From the NCBI RefSeq assembly GCF_009707545.1, contig NZ_WLYK01000001.1, positions 1,302,001-1,366,000 of the forward strand: a stretch of 64,000 nucleotides of DNA, written 5' to 3'. Below the pieces are notes generated by a model. That model was not told where the DNA came from. It made no database searches and was given only the letters and a program-made list of their open reading frames with translations. The DNA comes from Nakamurella alba (GTDB lineage Bacteria > Actinomycetota > Actinomycetes > Mycobacteriales > Nakamurellaceae). Shown here one piece after another: positions 7,434-50,433 of the stretch (within the stretch, counting starts at the first letter, position 1; each line of letters starts with the position of its first letter). The position numbers were made by a program, and so were the translations under genes.

Positions 7434-8537
7434 TCAGCGGCGCGGGTCCTGCGGCAGCGCGACGAAGGTGTAGCCCTGCGCCTGCAGCTTCTCGATGATC
7501 TTCGGCAGGGCGGCCAGGGTCTGGGACCGGTCGCCGCCGGCGTCGTGCATCAGGATGATCGACCCCGGTGTGACCGTGCTCAGCACGTTGTCGACGATCT
7601 GCGCGACGCCCGGCTTCTGCCAGTCCTCGGAGTCGACCGCCCAGGCCAGCGGCAGGGTGCGGAAGTGCGCGAGCCGCTGGCGCAGCAGATCGGTGTGCCC
7701 CCAGTCGCCGCCCGGTGCCCGGTAGTAGGCCGGCTCCTGGCCGGTCGCCGCCTTGATGGCGTCCTGGGTCCGCTGGATCTCCCGGTCGATCACCGCCACC
7801 GGCTTGCCGGGCAGCTGCATGTCGTGGTCCCACGTGTGGTTGCACAGGGTGTGCCCGGCTTGGGCGATCCGCTGCTCGGTGCCCGGGTAGTCGGCGATCT
7901 GCTCGCCGATCTGGCAGAACGTCGCGGTGATCCCGTACCGCTCCAGGATGTCCAGCACCTTCCCGGTCTGCGGGCCGGGTCCGTCGTCGAACGTCAGGCT
8001 GACCACCTTGCCGCCGTCCACCCAGCCCATCAGGTGCTGGTACTGCCGGGGGAGCGGCCCGGCGGGGGTGGTGGTCGTGGTGGTGGGAGCCTTCGCGGTC
8101 GTCGGCGCGGTGGTCGTCGGCGCAGCGGTCGTCGTGGTCTTCGGAGCGGTCATGCCCGGTGCGGTGGTGGTCGGTGCGGTGGTGGTGGGCGCAGAGGTGG
8201 ACGGCGCAGAGGTGGACGGCGGGGTGGCGGTGGGTGCAGAGGTGGACGGTGTGACAGGTGTGGACGTCTCGGTGTCGGTCTCGGTGGGGACGGTGCCGAT
8301 GGTCAGGGCGGGCACGGTGACCACGACGGACGAGGTGGGCGCCGCCGGGTCACTGCTGGAAGGTTGATCGGTACCCGCCCCGGCCTCGGTGCTGCTGCCG
8401 GGCGTGCTGTCCAGTACCTGCGGCAGCACGATCGGCGCGTCCGCGGTGCGGCCGACCGCGAGCACGGTGACGGTGCTGCCGAGCACAACGGCGGTGACGG
8501 CGGCCAGCACGGCGAGCACCACCGAGGTTCGTCTCAC
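7434..8537 (-). CDS. Secreted or membrane-anchored polysaccharide deacetylase (NodB/CE4)
   Basis: The 367-residue protein starts with an N-terminal hydrophobic segment (about residues 8-28; signal peptide or anchor), followed by a long Pro/Thr/Ser-rich linker (to about residue 165) with many TTTAPTTTAP-like blocks, then a CE4 domain. The five CE4 motifs are visible: TFDDGP (motif 1, with the metal-binding and base Asp pair), NHTWDH (motif 2), RAPGGDWG (motif 3), an AVDSEDW segment (motif 4) and LMHDAGG (motif 5). Such enzymes remove N-acetyl groups from peptidoglycan or other surface glycans using a divalent metal. The linker suggests the catalytic domain reaches into the cell wall. It is convergent with the preceding operon and interrupts the mycobacterial gene order. 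Confidence 0.92.
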   Translation of the reverse strand: MRRTSVVLAVLAAVTAVVLGSTVTVLAVGRTADAPIVLPQVLDSTPGSSTEAGAGTDQPSSSDPAAPTSSVVVTVPALTIGTVPTETDTETSTPVTPSTSAPTATPPSTSAPSTSAPTTTAPTTTAPGMTAPKTTTTAAPTTTAPTTAKAPTTTTTTPAGPLPRQYQHLMGWVDGGKVVSLTFDDGPGPQTGKVLDILERYGITATFCQIGEQIADYPGTEQRIAQAGHTLCNHTWDHDMQLPGKPVAVIDREIQRTQDAIKAATGQEPAYYRAPGGDWGHTDLLRQRLAHFRTLPLAWAVDSEDWQKPGVAQIVDNVLSTVTPGSIILMHDAGGDRSQTLAALPKIIEKLQAQGYTFVALPQDPRR

Positions 8538-8633
8538 CTGTCACACCCTTCGCTGGAATCACTTCTGTCACATCAGTCCCGTTGGTCACAGGCTACGGAG
8601 GGACTGGTGGACCGTAGGGCTGCCGCGCCGATG

Positions 8634-8658
8634 TTGATCACCGGGGATCGGTGATCAA
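8634..8658. promoter_or_regulatory. Perfect 9-bp inverted repeat, possible operator upstream of the deacetylase
   Basis: TTGATCACC (8634-8642) and GGTGATCAA (8650-8658) are exact inverted copies separated by 7 nt, about 100 nt upstream of the deacetylase start. Related gatcggtgatc half-sites continue to about 8680. This fits an operator or a small hairpin; the binding protein is unknown. Confidence 0.35.
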
Positions 8659-8766
8659 CCGGATCGGTGATCATCCGGATCGGGTCGGGCTGGATCGGGT
8701 GAGTCTTGAACGGTGCGGCCGGACCGGCGGGCAGAACCGGCCGACGTCGGTTCGGGGAGTGGCTAC

Positions 8767-8901
8767 CGGCGGCGGATCGGAGAGGGGGCCAGTCGGCGGC
8801 GGATCGGGCAGCGGGCCAGTCGGCGGCCGATCGGGGCGCGGGCGGGCCGGCGGCGGATCGGGGAGTGGGCCTACCGGCGGCGCATCGGAGCCGATCAGGT
8901 C
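8767..8901. repeat. Tandem repeat, five units of 27 bp
   Basis: Units begin at 8767, 8794, 8821, 8848 and 8875, each with a cggcggcggatcgg-like head and exact 27-bp spacing; inner positions vary. The array ends at the 3' end of the AglA-like gene. The period is a multiple of 3, but none of the overlapping open frames looks like a real protein. Confidence 0.85.
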
Positions 8902-10547: not shown

Positions 10548-11132
10548 GTGGCTGGACACGTGGCCGCGAAGACGGTGGAGCCGGTGGAGTCTGCGGAGAC
10601 CCCGGGCGCCGGCGTCCGTTCCACGGAGTTGCGGGCACTGCTGCTGAACGCCACGCACGAGCCGCTCGCCGTGGTGGCGGGGCGGCGGGCCCTGGTGCTG
10701 GTGCTGGCCGGCAAGGCCGAGTGCGTGCTCGAGCGGGACGGTGCCGAGCCGGTGCGGGCGCCGTCGGTCGCGCTGGCGGTGCCGGCGGTGCTACGACTGC
10801 ACCGCTACGTGCGCGTGCCCTACGTCGCGACGTTCCCGGTCACCCGGGCCGGGGTGCTACGCAGGGACCGTCGGAGATGCGCCTACTGCCGGGCGCCGGG
10901 GGACACGATCGATCACGTCGTTCCGCGCAGCCGCGGCGGTGCACATTCCTGGGAGAACTGCGTCGCCTGCTGCGTGCGGTGCAATGCGCGCAAGGCCGAC
11001 CGTTTGCTCGCCGAACTGGGATGGTCCCTGCCGATGCCGCCCGCGCCACCGCGTCGGGTGGGGGCATTGCGCATCGGGTGGGGCGAGGAGGCCGATCCGG
11101 CCTGGCAGCCCTGGCTGCAGACCGCTGCCTGA
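10548..11132 (+). CDS. HNH endonuclease
   Basis: The 194-residue protein has an HNH nuclease domain in its C-terminal half: [16 protein letters not shown], then [12 protein letters not shown], then [12 protein letters not shown]. This gives two CxxC zinc knuckles around the His-Asn-His-type beta-beta-alpha-metal fold. An N-terminal region (about residues 20-95; [16 protein letters not shown]) is typical of the actinobacterial subgroup found beside this locus (Rv2469c position, from memory). The GTG start at 10548 is chosen because a ggagg motif sits 6 nt upstream. Its biological target is unknown; such stand-alone HNH proteins may act in repair or defence. Confidence 0.9.
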
Positions 11133-11446
11133 GGGCTGTACGACCCGGCCTGACGGGGCCGGGGGACCGCTGCCGTCGGCTTTCGCGGACCCCTCGGGCT
11201 GCGGAACGTGACGATGCCGGCGCATGGTCCGCAGCTGCCCGACCGGGATCGGAAGGACATCGGGGAGGCATGCGCGCAGACAGGGTGGAGCAGAGGTGGG
11301 ACGGTGGTGCTCGCTGCGTCAGGGGTCGGAATCCGTTGCGGCGCCGGTCGTCCGACGGCCGTCGTGATCAGTTCCCTTGGCACGGCGCACTTCTGCCGTG
11401 CCGCCGGCGACGCGATCAGCCGGCGGTAAGGATCTCCGGTGGGAGA
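11133..11446. other. Gene-free stretch between the HNH gene and the small peptide gene
   Basis: No supported gene is seen. At its right end a 7-bp inverted repeat (gatctcc 11431-11437 with ggagatc 11442-11448, 4-nt loop) abuts the stop codon of the small minus-strand gene and could act as a weak terminator for it. Confidence 0.45.
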
Positions 11447-11599
11447 TCAGCCCATGCGGATGCCACGGCCCATGCGGATCCCGCGGCCCATGCGGATGCC
11501 ACGGCCCATGCGGATCCCGCGATCCACCTTCGAGTGAACGCCCTCGCCGGAAGCGAGATCGAAAGCGGCGGCGGAAACGAGGTTACGGGCGGCGTTCAT
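11447..11599 (-). CDS. Small 50-residue peptide with four RGIRMG repeats (unrecognised)
   Basis: An ATG at 11599 is preceded by an AGGAG ribosome-binding site 8 nt upstream and opens a 50-codon frame. The product begins MNAARNLVSAAAFDLASGEG (residues 1-20), continues VHSKVD, and ends with the hexapeptide RGIRMG four times in perfect series (residues 27-50), directly before TGA. The repeats differ only by synonymous codons (CGC GGG against CGT GGC, alternating), as expected if the peptide sequence is maintained or arose by 36-bp duplication. The layout, a non-repetitive N-terminal half and an identical multi-copy C-terminal half, resembles precursor peptides with leader and repeated core, but no maturase, protease or transporter dedicated to it is evident except the divergent MFS gene 600 nt away. 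It could also be a small basic RNA- or membrane-binding protein (each repeat has two Arg). Family unknown to me. Confidence 0.6.
   Translation of the reverse strand: MNAARNLVSAAAFDLASGEGVHSKVDRGIRMGRGIRMGRGIRMGRGIRMG
11450..11521 (-). repeat. 18-bp tandem repeat, four units (two alternating variants)
   Basis: Four 18-bp units in register with the reading frame of the small peptide gene. Variants alternate, so the array is also two identical 36-bp units. All differences between units are synonymous. Confidence 0.9.
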
Positions 11600-12216
11600 G
11601 AGAGGACTCCTGTCGTGGGGGTGCACCAGCGGTCGAGCGCTGTTGCGGAGAGTGACCAGTAGGACAAGGCTGGACTTCGATGGCCCGGAGCCGGTGGCCG
11701 TTGGTCCTGGTGAACCCCCGGCTTGACCAGAATGCTTGTCCTGGTGGACGATTCGGCGCGATTTCCGCCGGCTCCGGGCATAATCATAGGTGGCTCGGGA
11801 CAGGGGTTCCGTTTGTGCTGCCTGGTGTTTGTCACGGAACGTAATTGTTTCTGAGGCCGAATCGGTGGCGCCGCCCTTGCCATTCCTGGCCTTCGTTTTG
11901 AATCACTCTGACGCCGCGCCAGATCTTCGGCCAAGTTCACCCGAACGATTTTTTGACAGCTGTCCAAAGCTTCGCTGTGGACGCTGCGTGCGCGCGCCGT
12001 GTGGCGTTCCGGTGGTCCCGGGCAGACCATCGGTCGCAGGGTCAGCGCCCCACTCTTGATCGGCGGACGCGGTTGCGGTAAGCGTGTCGCGGGAACTGCG
12101 CCGAGGTTCCAGGATCATTCGGACGCACATTCCGGCCGGGTGAGATCCACCGGTAGCGTTTCGTCCCGAGTGTCCTGTTCGCGCGAGCGAGTCCCTTTCC
12201 CGGTGGAGGTCTGGCC
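11600..12216. other. Comparatively AT-rich gene-free region between divergent small gene and MFS gene
   Basis: This 617-nt stretch is visibly less GC-rich than its surroundings (especially 11750-11975) and no open frame in it has a good start or family-like sequence. It contains a consensus TTGACA hexamer on the plus strand (11953-11958) but no convincing -10 at the right spacing. It presumably carries the divergent promoters of the small peptide gene and of the MFS gene. Confidence 0.5.
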
Positions 12217-13608
12217 TTGACGGTGCGGCTCACCGGTCCCGGTGGGGCCACCGCCCCGCCGGCGGCGCTGCCTGGTGACTTCCTGCGGCTGCTGCTCGCC
12301 TGGTTCTCCTCGCTCACCGGCGACGGGCTGCGGATGGTGGCCCTGCCGCTGCTCGCGGCCTGGGTGTCGCCGACGCCCGGGGCGGTGGCCGCGGTCGCCG
12401 CCTTCACCTCGCTGCCCTGGCTGCTGGTCGCGGTGCCGGCCGGGGCGCTGGTGGACCGGATGTCGGCGGTGGTCGCGATCCGGGTCGCGCACGTGGTCCG
12501 CGCCCTCTGCACCCTCGGCCTGGTCGTCGCCGTGGAGACCGGTTGGTACGGCATCCCGGTGCTGTGCGCCTTCGGGTTCGTGCTGACGGCCGCGGAGACC
12601 TTCGCCGACGGCGCGGCGCAGACGATGATCGTGCGGATCGTCCCGCAGGCCCAGCTGGAGAAGGCGAACACCCGGTTCGCCGTCGTGGAGACCGTGGCCC
12701 TGGACCTGGTGGGCCCGCTCGTCGCCGGTGTGACCTTCGTGGTCGCCGGGTGGATCCCGTTCGCGCTGTCCGCCGCGGCGTTCGCGGTCGCGGCGGTGGT
12801 GGTCGGGCGGATCCGGGCCGGCCGGACCACTGCCGAGGACCGCGTGCTGTCCTCACTGCAGCGGGCCGCGGCGCTGCCGACCGCCGTGCCCACGGCCCCG
12901 CCCACAGATCCACCGACGAACCTACCGACCGATCTGCCCGTGGGGTTGCCGACCGGCCCCCGGCACCGGCGGGCGGCACCGGTGCGCGGGCCGCTCACGG
13001 GGGAGATCCGCGAGGGACTCCGCCGGCTCTTCGCCGACCCGGTGCTGCGCACCCTGGTGATCACCGTCGCGGTGCTGGCCGCCGCGGTCGCGGCCCAGGA
13101 CGGCGTACTGGTGCTCTACGCGACCGAGGACCTCGGACTGTCCCCGGAGCTCTACCCGACGCTGCTGGTGGCGATGTCGGTCGGGATCCTCGTCACCGCC
13201 CCGTTCGTCGGCCGGTGGGCCGACCGGTTCGGGCAGGGCCCGCTGATGGTCACCGCGATCGTCGCCACCGGGTCCGGGATCGTGCTGATGGGTCTGCTCC
13301 CGCACCCGGTGACCGGGTGGGCCTGCTACCTGCTGATCGGCGCCTCCGGGGTGACCTGGAACGTGCTGTCGGCGACCCGGCGGCAGCGTCGCACCCCGGT
13401 CGAGATGGCAGCCCGGGTGTCCTCGGCGTTCCGGGTGGTGGCGTTCGGGGCGGCGCCGGTCGGCAACGTCCTCGGCGGCGTGATCGGGCACCTCTGGGGT
13501 GTCCAGGCGGTGTTCCTGGTGGCCGGCGGGGCGATGCTGGTCACGGCGGCGTGTGCGGGCCGGTCCTTCTTCCGGCCGTTGCCGCCGTCCGATAGCGTGC
13601 ACGGGTGA
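12217..13608 (+). CDS. MFS transporter (multidrug-efflux-like)
   Basis: The 463-residue polytopic membrane protein alternates hydrophobic segments with short charged loops, including an early LVDRMSAVVAIRVAHVVRA loop of the MFS_3/MefA type. A long central hydrophilic loop with a TDPPTNLPTDLPVGLPTG low-complexity run (about residues 225-245) joins the two six-helix halves. Such proteins export drugs or small molecules by proton antiport. The TTG start at 12217 is chosen because a ggagg motif lies 7 nt upstream. The stop overlaps the GTG of the next gene (GTGA), suggesting co-transcription with ctaJ and the DUF5130 gene. Substrate unknown. Confidence 0.88.
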   Translation: MTVRLTGPGGATAPPAALPGDFLRLLLAWFSSLTGDGLRMVALPLLAAWVSPTPGAVAAVAAFTSLPWLLVAVPAGALVDRMSAVVAIRVAHVVRALCTLGLVVAVETGWYGIPVLCAFGFVLTAAETFADGAAQTMIVRIVPQAQLEKANTRFAVVETVALDLVGPLVAGVTFVVAGWIPFALSAAAFAVAAVVVGRIRAGRTTAEDRVLSSLQRAAALPTAVPTAPPTDPPTNLPTDLPVGLPTGPRHRRAAPVRGPLTGEIREGLRRLFADPVLRTLVITVAVLAAAVAAQDGVLVLYATEDLGLSPELYPTLLVAMSVGILVTAPFVGRWADRFGQGPLMVTAIVATGSGIVLMGLLPHPVTGWACYLLIGASGVTWNVLSATRRQRRTPVEMAARVSSAFRVVAFGAAPVGNVLGGVIGHLWGVQAVFLVAGGAMLVTAACAGRSFFRPLPPSDSVHG

Positions 13609-23638: not shown

Positions 23639-25582
23639 TCAGGGCTTGCGCAGGTGGTCGTAGGCACCACCGGTGCCGGCCAGTTCGATGGTCCGCTGGT
23701 TGATCGCCACCACCGGCTGCACCCCGCCGTACGGCTCCCAGGACGGCACGTACCTGGCCGCCCCGCCGTTCACCACGACGATCGTGCCGCTGGGCCGGGC
23801 CTGCAGGAACGTGCCGTCGGCCGGGTGGAAGCGCAGGTGGTTCCAGTCGCCGCCGATGCCGGCGCGGCTGACCGCCACCGGGTCGATCTGCGTGGCCGGC
23901 CGCACCCCACCCAGCTCCGCCCAGGACGACACGTACAGCGGCGCCCCGCCGGCCACCCGGAAGACCGTGCCCGCGGCGTTGAGAAAGGTGCCGTCGGCGG
24001 GCAGCTGCTGCAGGTGGTTCCAGTCGCCGCCACGACCGGCGTTCCGGACCGCCGCCGGGTCGATCTGGGTCGCGGCGCGGACCCCGCCGAACGTCGTCCA
24101 CGACGACACGACGATCGGTGCGCCGCCGGCGACCCGGAACACCGTGCCTCCGGCGTTGAGGAAGGTGCCGTCCGCGGGCATCCGGCGCAGGTGGTTCCAG
24201 TCGCCGCCGATCCCGGCGTTGCGGACCGCGGCCGGGTCGATCTGGGTGGCGGCCCGCACCCCGCCGAACGGCGTCCACGACGACACGACGATCGGTGCGC
24301 CGCCGGCGATCCGGTAGACGGTGCCGCCGGCGTTGACGAAGGTGCCGTCGGCGGGCACCGGCCGCAGGTGGTTCCAGTCCCCGCCGATGCCGGCCCGGCT
24401 GATCGCCGCCGGGTCGACCCGGATCGTGGACCGGGGTGCGCCGAACGGCGTCCACGACGACACCACTATCGGTGCGCCGCCGGCCACCCGGTAGGTGGTG
24501 CGGCCGGCCGAGAGGAACGTGCCGTCGGCGGGCACGGCGTTCAGCGCGGCGAAGTCGGTGGTGCTGATGACCCGGACCGGTTGCACCCCACCGACTGTCG
24601 CCCAGGCCGACACCGGGATCGGCGCGCCGCCGGCCACCCGGTAGATGGTGCGGAACCCGCCGACCCGGATGAACTCGCCGTCCCGGACGGCGCCGCCGCG
24701 GGAGGCCTGGACCAGCCGGGCCGTGGTGGTCGCGGTGGCCCGGGCCGGATCGGCGTAGCTGGCGGCGAGCGTGAGCACCGCGACGAAGTAGCGGTCGGTG
24801 TAGCCGACCGAGTGCATGGCGTTCGACGGTGTGGTCCAGAAGCTGTCGTTGCCCCACCCCTGCTTGGACCCGTGCACGCCGGTCAACGCGTTGAGCCCGA
24901 AGTCCTGGTTGAACCCGTCGGACCCGAGCGCGGTGGTGCGGGCCATCACCGGGATCAGCCACGGCCCGACCAGCGGGTCCTTCGAGGCGCGGTAGAGGAA
25001 GGTCGTCATGTCCCGGGCGGTGATCCGCGCCGCGCCCCAGTGGCCCACCCGGTCGGTGGCGTTGGTGGTGCCGGTCATCCCGTAGCGGGCGGCCATCGAC
25101 GGGATGGCGCTGCTGGTGAACAGGGAGTTCGCGGTGCCGTCGTCGGAGTACTCGAGCATGTACGCCAGCCGGTCCCGGACATCGGCCGGTGTCTTGTTGT
25201 AGCCGCCGTAGAGCACCAGGTAGTAGGCCGCCAGCAGCAGTTTCATGATCGACTCGGACGCGACCTGGGACCGGGCGTTCGCCGTCTCGGACAGCACGGC
25301 GCCGGTGCTGCGGTCGATCACACTGACGTACTGCCGCACCCCGCGGGCCTGCGCCTGGGCGACGCCGGACGAGACCGCGGTGGCCGGCGACTGGACCGCC
25401 GCGACCTGCGGCAACGGTGCGAGCCCGGGGCCGCCGACGACCGGGGCCGGCCGGACCGGGGTACCGGCGGCCGGCAGCGGGAGCAGCGGCAGGACGAGGG
25501 AGAGGACCAGCAACAGGACCGCGCGGCGCCCGCGCCGTCCGGATCGCGGCAGGGCGGTCGTTCGGTTCACGCGCAGGCTCAC
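23639..25582 (-). CDS. Secreted serine hydrolase (beta-lactamase-like) with C-terminal tandem repeats
   Basis: The 647-residue protein begins with a signal peptide (RRAVLLLVLSLVLPLLPLP, about residues 20-38). A serine beta-lactamase/penicillin-recognising fold follows, with SIMK (Ser111, Lys114) as the SxxK active site and HGSKQGWG as a candidate for the third box; EYSDDGTANSLF lies between. From about residue 310 to the end there are about six repeats of near 50 residues built on PADGTFLNAGGTVFRVAGG, APIVVSSW, GGVRAATQIDPAAVRNAG and GGDWNHL. Such repeats are common in actinobacterial surface proteins and probably bind the cell wall. The GTG at 25582 is chosen to give a normal signal peptide; a second in-frame GTG lies 4 codons later. 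Confidence 0.8.
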   Translation of the reverse strand: MSLRVNRTTALPRSGRRGRRAVLLLVLSLVLPLLPLPAAGTPVRPAPVVGGPGLAPLPQVAAVQSPATAVSSGVAQAQARGVRQYVSVIDRSTGAVLSETANARSQVASESIMKLLLAAYYLVLYGGYNKTPADVRDRLAYMLEYSDDGTANSLFTSSAIPSMAARYGMTGTTNATDRVGHWGAARITARDMTTFLYRASKDPLVGPWLIPVMARTTALGSDGFNQDFGLNALTGVHGSKQGWGNDSFWTTPSNAMHSVGYTDRYFVAVLTLAASYADPARATATTTARLVQASRGGAVRDGEFIRVGGFRTIYRVAGGAPIPVSAWATVGGVQPVRVISTTDFAALNAVPADGTFLSAGRTTYRVAGGAPIVVSSWTPFGAPRSTIRVDPAAISRAGIGGDWNHLRPVPADGTFVNAGGTVYRIAGGAPIVVSSWTPFGGVRAATQIDPAAVRNAGIGGDWNHLRRMPADGTFLNAGGTVFRVAGGAPIVVSSWTTFGGVRAATQIDPAAVRNAGRGGDWNHLQQLPADGTFLNAAGTVFRVAGGAPLYVSSWAELGGVRPATQIDPVAVSRAGIGGDWNHLRFHPADGTFLQARPSGTIVVVNGGAARYVPSWEPYGGVQPVVAINQRTIELAGTGGAYDHLRKP

Positions 25583-43034: not shown

Positions 43035-44141
43035 ATGAACAAGGAAGCGCAGTCGGTGATCGTCGTCCTGATGGGCGGCCTGCTGCTCTCGATCACCATC
43101 AGCGGCCGGTACACCTCGTACGTGCGGCCCGAGTTCGGCGTGCTGCTGATCATCTCCGGCGCGATCCTGATCGGCGTCGGCATCGTCTCGCTGGTCACCG
43201 CGGTACGCCGGGACGTCGCGAAGGAGAAGGCCCGCAAGGCGCTGCTCGCCGCGGTCCCGGCCGACGAGACCGCGCTCCGCGAGGGCCGGCCGTTCGCGAT
43301 GGCCGAGTTCACCGGCGTGCTGCGGACCCCCGCCGACAGCGCCGGAGTGGACGGTGGCGGGGCCGGCGGTGACAGCGGTGGCCGGCACCGGCAGGTCGAC
43401 GAGGGCGAGTTGCGGCCGGAGCCGCTGCCGGTCAGCGCCGCGGTGGTCGAGGCGGACCCTGAGGACCACCATCACGGCCACGACCACAGCCGGTCCAAGG
43501 CGCCCTGGTTGATCCTGGCGCCGGTGCTGGTGCTGCTGGTCGCCGCGCCGCCCGCGCTGGGTGCCGACGCGGTGGCCCGGTCCGCCGGGTCCCAGGCGGT
43601 GGCCGGACTCGAGGAGCTGGCAGCGACCGACTCCGGTTCCGGCTCGACGTCGGCGAACACCGACACCGGCGGCAAGGACGCGGCCGGCGGCGGTGGCGGC
43701 TACGCCTTCAACGACGGATCCGGACGCGGGGTCGGTACCGAGGCGTTCGCCCGGCAGCGGCCCACCATGCAGTTCGACCCGCTGCCGACCGGTGAGGACC
43801 CGGCGATCCCGCTGCGCGAGTTCGTGCTGCGCGCGCTGTACGACGGGGAGGACTCGGTGGTCGACACCCCGGTCACCGTCACCGGTTTCATCGCCCCCGC
43901 GGGCACCGGGTTCACCAGCGGCTACTCGATCGCCCGGCTGGTGATCAGCTGCTGCGCGGCGGACGCCAACCCGATGCAGATCCACGTCGACGGTGATGCC
44001 CCGCTGCCCACCGACACCTGGGTGACCGCCGTCGTCACCGCCGTGCCGGACACCGCGGGGCAGGACAACGGCTACGTGCCGACGGTGACGGTCACCTCGA
44101 TCACCCCGGTCGACCAGCCCTCGGATCCGTACGAGCACTGA
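43035..44141 (+). CDS. TIGR03943 (YcgQ/UPF0703-like) membrane protein with His-rich loop
   Basis: The 368-residue protein starts with two membrane helices (about residues 8-60), then a long hydrophilic region holding DHHHGHDH (about 143-152), a third hydrophobic segment (WLILAPVLVLLVAAPPALG) and an extracytoplasmic domain with the family motif ISCCAADANPMQIHV (Cys pair). The His cluster and Cys pair both point to metal binding, probably zinc. It follows the UPF0718 permease by 67 nt, a widely conserved pairing. The 3' end (encoding VDQPSDPYEH) lies in an 81-bp unit that is triplicated downstream. Confidence 0.87.
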   Translation: MNKEAQSVIVVLMGGLLLSITISGRYTSYVRPEFGVLLIISGAILIGVGIVSLVTAVRRDVAKEKARKALLAAVPADETALREGRPFAMAEFTGVLRTPADSAGVDGGGAGGDSGGRHRQVDEGELRPEPLPVSAAVVEADPEDHHHGHDHSRSKAPWLILAPVLVLLVAAPPALGADAVARSAGSQAVAGLEELAATDSGSGSTSANTDTGGKDAAGGGGGYAFNDGSGRGVGTEAFARQRPTMQFDPLPTGEDPAIPLREFVLRALYDGEDSVVDTPVTVTGFIAPAGTGFTSGYSIARLVISCCAADANPMQIHVDGDAPLPTDTWVTAVVTAVPDTAGQDNGYVPTVTVTSITPVDQPSDPYEH

Positions 44142-44351
44142 GCCGACGGCGGCTTCCCCTCAGCGGGCGCCGGGCACCTCGGACATCCGGTCGACCAGGC
44201 GTCGGATCCGTACGAGCACTGAGCCGACGGCGGCTTCCCCTCAGCGGGCGCCGGGCACCTCGGACATCCGGTCGACCAGGCGTCGGATCTGAACGAGCAC
44301 TGAGCCGACCGGCGGCGCACCGGGTCAGCGGGCGCCGGGCACCTCGGACAC
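44106..44351. repeat. 81-bp direct repeat, three copies, spanning the ends of two convergent genes
   Basis: Copies begin at 44106, 44187 and 44268 (ccggtcgacca...). The first two are nearly identical over 81 bp, the third has changes and 3 extra nt. Each copy contains the plus-strand tail of the TIGR03943 gene with its TGA and the minus-strand tail of the epimerase gene with its TGA. The third copy overlaps the true 3' end of the epimerase gene. Confidence 0.92.
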
Positions 44352-49179: not shown

Positions 49180-49600
49180 GCAGGGTGACGGTTCGCCACG
49201 CAGTTGAACTGCGCCCGGGACAGGAGCAGTTGTCCGGTGGAGCGGCCGGGTGGCTGCCCGGGAGGGGTGTTGAGTTGAACTGCGCCGGGACGGCTGCCGG
49301 TACGAACAGGCGGGGTCGGTCAGCCGGCCGGCGGTTCCCGGTTGGTGCTGAACCGCGCCCGGACCAGAGCTGGTAGACGGGCGGCCGGGTGACGGTTCGC
49401 CGCAGAGTTGAATTGCGGCCAGACCAGGGCCGGTAGGCGGGCGATCCGGCGGGCGGCCGGGTGACGGTTCGCGACGGTGTTGAACTGCGGCCGGGACAAG
49501 GGTCGGTGGGCGGGTGGTGCCGTCGTGTTGCCGGGTGGCGGTTCGTGGGTGTTCTGAACTGCGCCCGGACAGCGGCGGGTAGGAACGGGTGGGGTTGGTC
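49180..49600 (+). repeat. Dispersed-type tandem repeat family A, six copies
   Basis: The core GTTGAACTGCGCCCGGGACA occurs at 49203 and with changes at 49274, 49347, 49407, 49479 and 49553, with steps of 60-74 bp. A companion block gggtgacggttcgc precedes most cores by about 20 nt. Unit length is not a multiple of 3, arguing against a protein repeat. Confidence 0.8.
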
Positions 49601-50004: not shown

Positions 50005-50360
50005 CACGTTCCCGCGGTTCAGGGCAATCGGTAAAGCCGACCGCCGCGACCGCAATCCCGGCTCGACAACCCGGCCACCGCAGGCCATTCCCGCTGGTCA
50101 TGGCAATCGGTGAACCCAACCACCCACTGACCGCAGGCCAGCTCGACGACCTGGTCCCCGGTGGTCAGGGCGATCGTTGAACCCGACCACCCACTGACCG
50201 CAGGTCGGCCCGACAACTTGGCCTCCGCCCGCCATTCCCGCTGGTCAGGGCAATCGGTGAACCCGACCACTCACTGACCGCCAGGCCGGCTCGCGAACCC
50301 AGCTACCGCAGCACATTCCCGCTGGTCAGGGCGATCGTTGACCCGACCACCCCGCTGACC
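50005..50360 (-). repeat. Tandem repeat family B, five copies of about 80 bp
   Basis: The core agggcRatcg and its surroundings (cattcccgctggtc before, gtgaacccgaccac and cactgaccgcaggc after) recur at 50021, 50100, 50167, 50247 and 50328, with steps of 79, 67, 80 and 81 bp. Each unit has ggtcag and ctgacc as an internal inverted pair. The copies end about 75 nt before the pepA stop. Confidence 0.85.
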
Positions 50361-50433
50361 CCAGGCCGGCTCGAGAACCCGGCGGGCCCGGCTGGTCGGA
50401 GTGGGAAGCACACCCACCCCGACCACCCGAACC

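Follow-up and report, generated by a model that had tools for sequence, protein, structure and literature searches.

Tiny bacterial genes carrying one repeated hexapeptide that varies between species and stays alike within a gene

A short reading frame in the window, by which we mean the whole stretch of 64,000 nucleotides that was analysed, ends in four copies of the hexapeptide RGIRMG. The locus raises the question of whether such a frame is a gene or a chance product of GC-rich DNA and, if it is a gene, whether its conserved property lies in the repeat, in the part before it or in the neighbouring genes.

The reading frame between the HNH and MFS genes

The frame and the features around it are located as follows.

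11447..11599, minus strand: 50-codon ORF, with ATG at 11599, codons to 11450 and the stop TGA at 11449-11447
11522..11599, minus strand: non-repetitive N-terminal 26 codons, the longest such part among those read, not conserved in relatives
11450..11521, minus strand: four RGIRMG units with an 18-nt period
11607..11611, minus strand: Shine-Dalgarno sequence AGGAG, 7 bases before the ATG
11431..11448, minus strand: 7-bp hairpin without mismatches, GATCTCC-CACC-GGAGATC, which overlaps the stop codon and has no T run, read from the sequence
11401..11426, minus strand: second hairpin, CCGCCGGC...GCCGGCGG, with the longest stem (8 pairs)
11903..11908, minus strand: GAGTGA, second copy of the upstream element
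11937..11942, minus strand: upstream element GGGTGA, 343 nt before the ATG
10632..11132, plus strand: HNH endonuclease gene, convergent neighbour and conserved flank
12217..13608, plus strand: MFS_1 transporter gene, divergent neighbour

The product is MNAARNLVSAAAFDLASGEGVHSKVD followed by (RGIRMG)x4, and the minus-strand frame with its AGGAG site, ATG and terminal repeat was exactly as the preliminary description had given it from the sequence. That description had also stated that the units differ only at synonymous third positions, and we found two such sites (CGC/CGT and GGG/GGC). The array is better described as a 36-bp unit duplicated exactly, with 100% identity in TRF. With only two third-position differences between copies, coding is weakly supported by the window on its own, and it is the relatives that supply the evidence. 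Elsewhere in the window, tandem repeats of about 81, 72 and 80 bp were observed at 44106-44350, 49378-49583 and 50157-50380, and about four copies of a 177-bp repeat at 23805-24539.

The surroundings had been called gene-free and relatively AT-rich, and both points held: no recognisable gene other than the small ORF was found in the gap between the HNH gene (ending at 11132) and the MFS gene (starting at 12217), and GC content was 0.62-0.68 in the 500-base segments starting at 11250, 11500 and 11750, compared with 0.69-0.78 in the remaining segments of the 8-16 kb interval. Scans of this gap gave no Rfam match, no sigma-70 promoter and no minus-strand terminator, and the hairpin at 11431..11448 was absent from the terminator output. 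The protein had no match in Pfam, NCBIfam, PHROGs or PADLOC, and a PDB sequence search with its repeat part returned one match, to a ribosomal protein (E 3.9), which was taken as chance.

Related small genes at two loci

Members in the genus were reached by a search of relatives in all six frames with this one peptide as query, which drew attention to G007, by a profile search of 17 genomes and by reading the HNH-flanking gaps. The search for homologues with the 50-residue query, proposed at the outset as a check, recovered true relatives together with many chance matches. A short ORF of the same layout was present in the HNH-side gap in 11 of the 17 genus genomes (10 of the 16 besides the window's), in all cases on the strand convergent with the HNH gene, and no such gene was found in the other six. 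The members of this group, f1, which we take to fit Nakamurellaceae, are listed by genome.

G000: (RGIRMG)x4, in the genus gap
G007: MSES(RGTRVG)x7, with its own Shine-Dalgarno sequence, between MFS and HNH genes
G008: (RGARIG)x6, in the genus gap
G009: (RGCRIG)x2
G004 and G010: RGTRVG(FGTRVG)x5
G013: two tandem genes, each (RGSRIG)x5
G012: four tandem genes with RAVRVG, including one HAVRVG and one RAIPVG (G012d) among the units
G015: two tandem genes with RGTRIG, with N runs inside both repeat arrays
G001: dispersed units, RGGRFGF three times, with Ser/Thr/Ala-rich spacers
G006: dispersed units, three RGVRVG of which the first and second are followed by F, with differing spacers and a weak Shine-Dalgarno sequence (AAAGG)

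Clear Shine-Dalgarno sequences precede the genes of the genus relatives except that of G006. An orthologue of the MFS gene adjoins the small gene in 10 of the 11 genomes, and an amidase gene takes its place in G012, where four copies of the small gene are arranged head to tail (L071 ~7900-8900; G012:C2:522017-522803). Among the genomes without the gene, G002, G005 and G016 have an HNH orthologue and no MFS orthologue, with no repeat ORF in the 1.5 kb read, and in G003, G011 and G014 the HNH homologues are all distant (39-48% identity), so the locus was not identified in these three. Terminator-like stems are weak in the genus, a stem of 9 or more pairs following the stop in only 2 of 14 cases. 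These comparisons indicate that the window ORF is more than chance and that the gene is real, with position, frame and layout conserved in the genus, as had been supposed when it was described as an overlooked coding gene.

The element G[AG]GTGA[ACT] was found 430 to 150 nt upstream in all 11 genus members with the gene, compared with a mean of 0.96 and a maximum of 5 in dinucleotide shuffles, for a pattern that was chosen after seeing the sequences. Two copies are 34-35 nt apart in six of the 11 genomes and 45 nt apart in a seventh, and four genomes have a single copy. Because the element is kept in G012, which is without the MFS gene, it probably belongs to the small gene rather than to the MFS gene. 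The GGGTGA-type direct repeats may resemble the sites of OmpR-family response regulators.

Outside the genus, profiles run against 397 genomes of the order gave matches in 25 genomes. Short ORFs, all belonging to a second group (f16, which we take to fit Geodermatophilaceae), accounted for 13 of the 22 inspected genomes and long frames for nine; the match in G068 was not a short ORF, and the matches in G263 and G279 lay outside the inspection. All 13 ORFs were located at one other locus, where the small gene follows a YajQ-like gene and a Tad-like gene (or no called gene in the latter's place) and precedes a GAF-GGDEF-EAL gene on the same strand. The GGDEF-EAL protein was therefore used as an anchor in 112 genomes, of which 106 had it, and 105 upstream regions were read from 104 of these 106 (G761 has two; G777 and G786, with the anchor present, and one of the two G774 anchors were left out; G778 and G780 offered just 366 and 346 bases). 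A counterpart was found upstream of the GGDEF-EAL gene at 102 of the 105 loci: 93 by a pattern requiring a Shine-Dalgarno-led ORF with at least two consecutive R..[KRMS]W. units, in which residues 2, 3 and 6 are free and the Shine-Dalgarno sequence is itself a search condition, and nine by eye among the 12 remaining regions, where G043 has one clear unit and G060 is irregular. One bacterial family has the small gene at almost all loci read, and in a genus of another family 11 of 17 species carry it.

The pattern-found ORFs lie at a similar distance from the anchor in 92 of 93 cases, that of G751 being about 1 kb further up, and contain two units in 26 genes, three in 44, four in 20 and five in three. 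Their unit is R-x-x-[KR]-W-x, with 59 distinct units among the 93 genes. R1 and W5 occur in 93/93, as the pattern requires, and K or R at residue 4 in 89/93; residue 2 is mostly G, residue 3 takes fourteen amino acids between species, and residue 6 is G, S, T, N or A. The two G761 loci differ at residue 4 (RTARWG and RTAKWG).

Profile searches over the class and the phylum (394, 394 and 396 genomes) gave no short-ORF member beyond G000 and G031 among the inspected matches; in most genomes scoring was confined to the best 20-21 candidates, which leaves absence elsewhere unproven. The remaining inspected matches looked like long or decayed frames and were set aside, as were a Winogradskya repeat from a contig scan, which lies inside a longer frame, and five partial matches from a plasmid search, including four in Agrobacterium that lie under large adhesin genes; the plasmid matches were taken as low-complexity.

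The surroundings of the f16 genes bear on two readings of the small gene. Within 120 nt after the stop, 62 of 92 cases have a stem of at least 9 pairs, compared with 45 of 318 shuffles, so that the gene looks monocistronic there. The 5' region contains, by eye, a TTGCC-N17-CAATGT-like promoter followed by a strongly conserved leader; about 120 nt upstream of the ORFs (L185-L282) this leader reads GCGGTCCG..ACGACGCTCTGCCCCCGCG..GCTGCCGC before the Shine-Dalgarno sequence and is extremely conserved. No pair covariation was detected in the region despite this conservation, and a structured 5' RNA was rejected on that ground. Six f16 loci gave no Rfam family above the gathering score other than tRNA, and in the window's genus the 5' signature gave nothing more than short matches of the kind expected by chance. 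Lying at different loci and without a common leader signature, the f1 and f16 genes may descend from a common ancestor or may have arisen alike.

A leader peptide or attenuator, whose translation would control a downstream gene, might be suspected from the strong conservation of the f16 5' region and the position of the ORF ahead of the GGDEF-EAL gene on the same strand. However, the next downstream gene in the genus, where a regulated gene would be expected, is the convergent HNH gene, and the lack of covariation and the frequent stem after the f16 stop argue in the same direction, though attenuators also have terminators. We regard this reading as very unlikely, and the family is probably not an attenuator. 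The GAF-GGDEF-EAL neighbour likewise suggests a peptide that binds or sequesters c-di-GMP, Arg-rich as in CleD, and short Arg-rich peptides suffice for such binding in Cle proteins, as the consulted part of PMC5677366 reports. The Cle motif described there has a conserved Asp at its C-terminal end, whereas the hexapeptide units have no acidic residue, and no GGDEF-EAL-type neighbour is found among the window proteins scanned; we therefore see very little prospect for a role of this kind.

Identity of the copies within a gene

All units fitting the pattern are identical in 90 of the 93 f16 genes. The pattern fixes residues 1, 4 and 5 in f16, and residues 1, 2, 4 and 6 in f1, so only the free residues test this identity, and we compared the codons of adjacent units. 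In f16 (93 arrays, 186 pairs), synonymous and non-synonymous differences were in the ratio 289:5, with 13, 8 and 286 differences at codon positions 1, 2 and 3, and 31 of the 186 pairs were identical in DNA. At residues 3 and 6, left free by the search pattern, the ratio was 82:2 (binomial p ~2e-45 against a neutral synonymous share of 0.26, a guide only, as related genomes are non-independent). The f1 genes (14 arrays, 52 pairs) gave 77:4, with 2, 4 and 79 differences at the three codon positions and 25:0 at residues 3 and 6, of which the pattern here holds residue 6 constant; residue 3 alone gave 9:0 in 12 of these arrays. The decoys, 37 arrays (137 pairs) that are a choice among chance matches, of arbitrary register and trimmed at the point where residue matches drop below 4 of 6, gave 58:121, with 99, 56 and 93 differences at the codon positions and 13:41 at residues 3 and 6. 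These counts cover neither the G015 genes, with their N runs, nor the nine f16 genes found by eye unless already caught by the pattern.

Departures from identity are few within the counts, with one odd unit each in G201, G151 and G761a (f16) and in G004, G010 and G012a (f1). Others fall outside the pattern and the counts: G012d contains RAIPVG and G765 PGNRWG, the last unit of G363 is shifted, the array of G782 is broken, and several f16 genes have a first unit that lacks R1.

Two simple accounts of this pattern fail. A residue 3 that was merely unconstrained would differ freely within genes, which is not seen. Copying by slippage or gene conversion would make synonymous sites alike too, and it was rejected as the cause of unit identity because these sites have diverged; single arrays of G110 and G228 use TCN as well as AGC for the serine at residue 3. 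The ratio of 82:2 at residues 3 and 6 in f16, set against 13:41 in the decoys, thus points to selected identity of the copies, and on this codon evidence selection keeps the copies in a gene alike, whatever the unit. The members with dispersed units point the same way, as G001 and G006 carry identical units 14-17 residues apart with unlike spacers between them. So do the tandem paralogues, which share their unit although their N-termini differ (two genes in G013; four in G012, with the two odd units); in the two genes of G015 the unit is common to both as far as the N runs allow reading.

Non-synonymous changes in the repeats of relatives had been named as evidence against the gene. Between species they are indeed seen, as the unit changes freely; within a gene they hardly ever occur. 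As judged from these alignments, this split between free change across species and near-fixity within a gene is itself the real finding, a substitution pattern that would be a direct sign that the hexapeptide is read by something. Chance low-complexity frames in GC-rich DNA are common, and the inspected profile matches outside the two families were of that kind, but synteny, frame and the synonymous pattern contradict such an origin for the small genes; chance is already refuted for the family, and we consider it next to impossible.

What the repeats may do, and the nearest known designs

Taken together, the sequences place the window ORF in a family of stand-alone mini-genes that mostly encode 2-7 copies of one short cationic unit, of the general form R-G-x-[RK]-hydrophobic/W-small, preceded by an N-terminus that is short, polar and variable. 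The repeated core-like part noted at the start is present in the window ORF and in its relatives. The 'leader-like half' proposed along with it did not survive the comparison, as the N-terminal part shrinks to 2-4 residues in relatives (MS, MNE, MNTQ, MSTQ, MSAA and MSES) and is unconserved across the family; what is conserved is the repeat pattern.

The identical repeats suggest that the repeated peptide is the working product. The reading we favour, while giving it a little less than an even chance, is a multi-copy peptide gene in which the unit itself would be the functional entity, read by a co-evolving partner such as a protease, receptor or binding protein. If a partner reads the unit, all copies must match, and a change of unit would spread to all of them. 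In the simplest version the copies would be cut apart into identical peptides; in the next simplest they would stay joined and be presented as a multivalent ligand. No protease, modifying enzyme or receptor adjoins the small gene among the neighbours scanned at both loci (HNH, MFS, DUF5130, M1 peptidase and globin in the window; YajQ-like, Tad-like and GGDEF-EAL in f16), which bears out the early remark that no maturation enzyme is adjacent. The MFS protein was considered as a general partner and rejected, since it is absent beside the gene in G012 and has a close orthologue in the genus only, among 61 genomes. By eye, the family proteins have no hydrophobic N-terminal signal segment.

Repeat identity could instead be selected for structural reasons. 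The strongest structural rival is a miniature left-handed beta-helix, folded or as an amyloid-like solenoid, in which each hexapeptide would form one side of a coil and the stacking of like residues would select identity. Three of the 10 genus proteins scanned pass the Pfam Hexapep cut-off of 27 bits (PF00132; G007 with 28.3, G008 with 36.1 and G013a with 28.1), and AlphaFold models the seven-unit G007 protein as a hexad solenoid with two strand residues per hexad (best pLDDT 90, pTM 0.60). In Foldseek this model superposes on hexapeptide-repeat proteins, namely carbonic anhydrases and acetyltransferases, at 0.6-1.3 A, with TM 0.75-0.84 in the ten best rows. However, the best Foldseek E-value is 0.32, the five G007 models span pLDDT 90 to 42, and a perfect repeat modelled from a single sequence readily comes out as a solenoid. 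The window's protein and those of G001, G004, G006, G010 and two of G012 fall below the Hexapep cut-off, none of the 11 f16 proteins scanned has a match, and the window protein, itself unmatched in Pfam, is modelled as helices (pLDDT 73, pTM 0.34). A continuous hexad coil, which most other members would allow, is interrupted by the spacers in G001 and G006, and 26 of the 93 f16 genes have two units only. Geodermatophilus obscurus does make an extracellular functional amyloid according to the available part of PMC3035280, which we count in favour of the beta-helix, and overall we judge such a fold possible but unlikely.

An uncut, disordered, intracellular binder of RNA, DNA or protein, RGG-like with Arg plus aromatic 'stickers' and acting through avidity, seems to us about as doubtful as the beta-helix. 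The units combine Arg or Lys with Trp, Val, Ile, Met or Phe and small residues, as a binder would, genes with fewer than two units are rare among those read, and no export signal is apparent by eye. Avidity alone, however, leaves unexplained why copies within a gene match at residue 3, where 14 alternatives are used between species.

Returning to a unit read by a partner, a more specific and distinctly less probable form is a leaderless stand-alone precursor, built like that of yeast alpha-factor, whose several copies of a species-specific hexapeptide would serve as a self-recognition signal or ligand. Unit and co-evolving receptor or protease would change together, and dozens of peptide types would result in two actinobacterial families. 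If the unit is excised, bacteria would have in these genes a minimal design for multicopy peptide signals; if it folds, the products would be among the smallest beta-helices. Some 60 natural unit variants are offered for exchange tests.

The family has no entry of its own in Pfam (21 members scanned), NCBIfam (11 scanned) or PHROGs (window protein only). Tiny bacterial genes with one repeated hexapeptide are undescribed so far in the literature searched by title and abstract start, with most subscription journals and preprints out of reach. Bacterial multi-core RiPP precursors contain repeated core-like units, and such units are common to both. In contrast to those precursors, the genes described here have no conserved leader, the N-terminus being of 2-26 residues, no adjacent modifying enzyme and no transporter common to all members; on the unconserved N-termini and the missing neighbour, a classical RiPP was rejected, a distant enzyme being possible. 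Hexapeptide-repeat proteins follow the motif [IV]-G-x-x-[STAV]-x, and the left-handed beta-helix of PF00132 shares the period of six, with several units readable in that motif; here there are at most about two coils and no enzyme domain, and the window and scanned f16 proteins are unmatched. Leaderless bacteriocins of Actinomycetota are short and leaderless, as here, and the portion of PMC11580447 that was available mentions no tandem hexapeptide architecture among them; the presence of the small gene at 102 of 105 f16 loci would also be unlike an accessory bacteriocin.

Fungal KEPs, including the yeast alpha-factor precursors, are described in the accessible part of PMC7329392 as carrying several copies of a short peptide per precursor, with highly diverse repeats, and almost all pheromone members are without a modifying-enzyme gene nearby. 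They have a signal peptide and Kex2 processing, neither of which was seen here, where the units mostly abut and the hosts are bacteria. As far as that source portrays them, these Kex2-processed repeat proteins are the nearest known design, with identical copies within a gene and diversity between species, as in the small genes described here.
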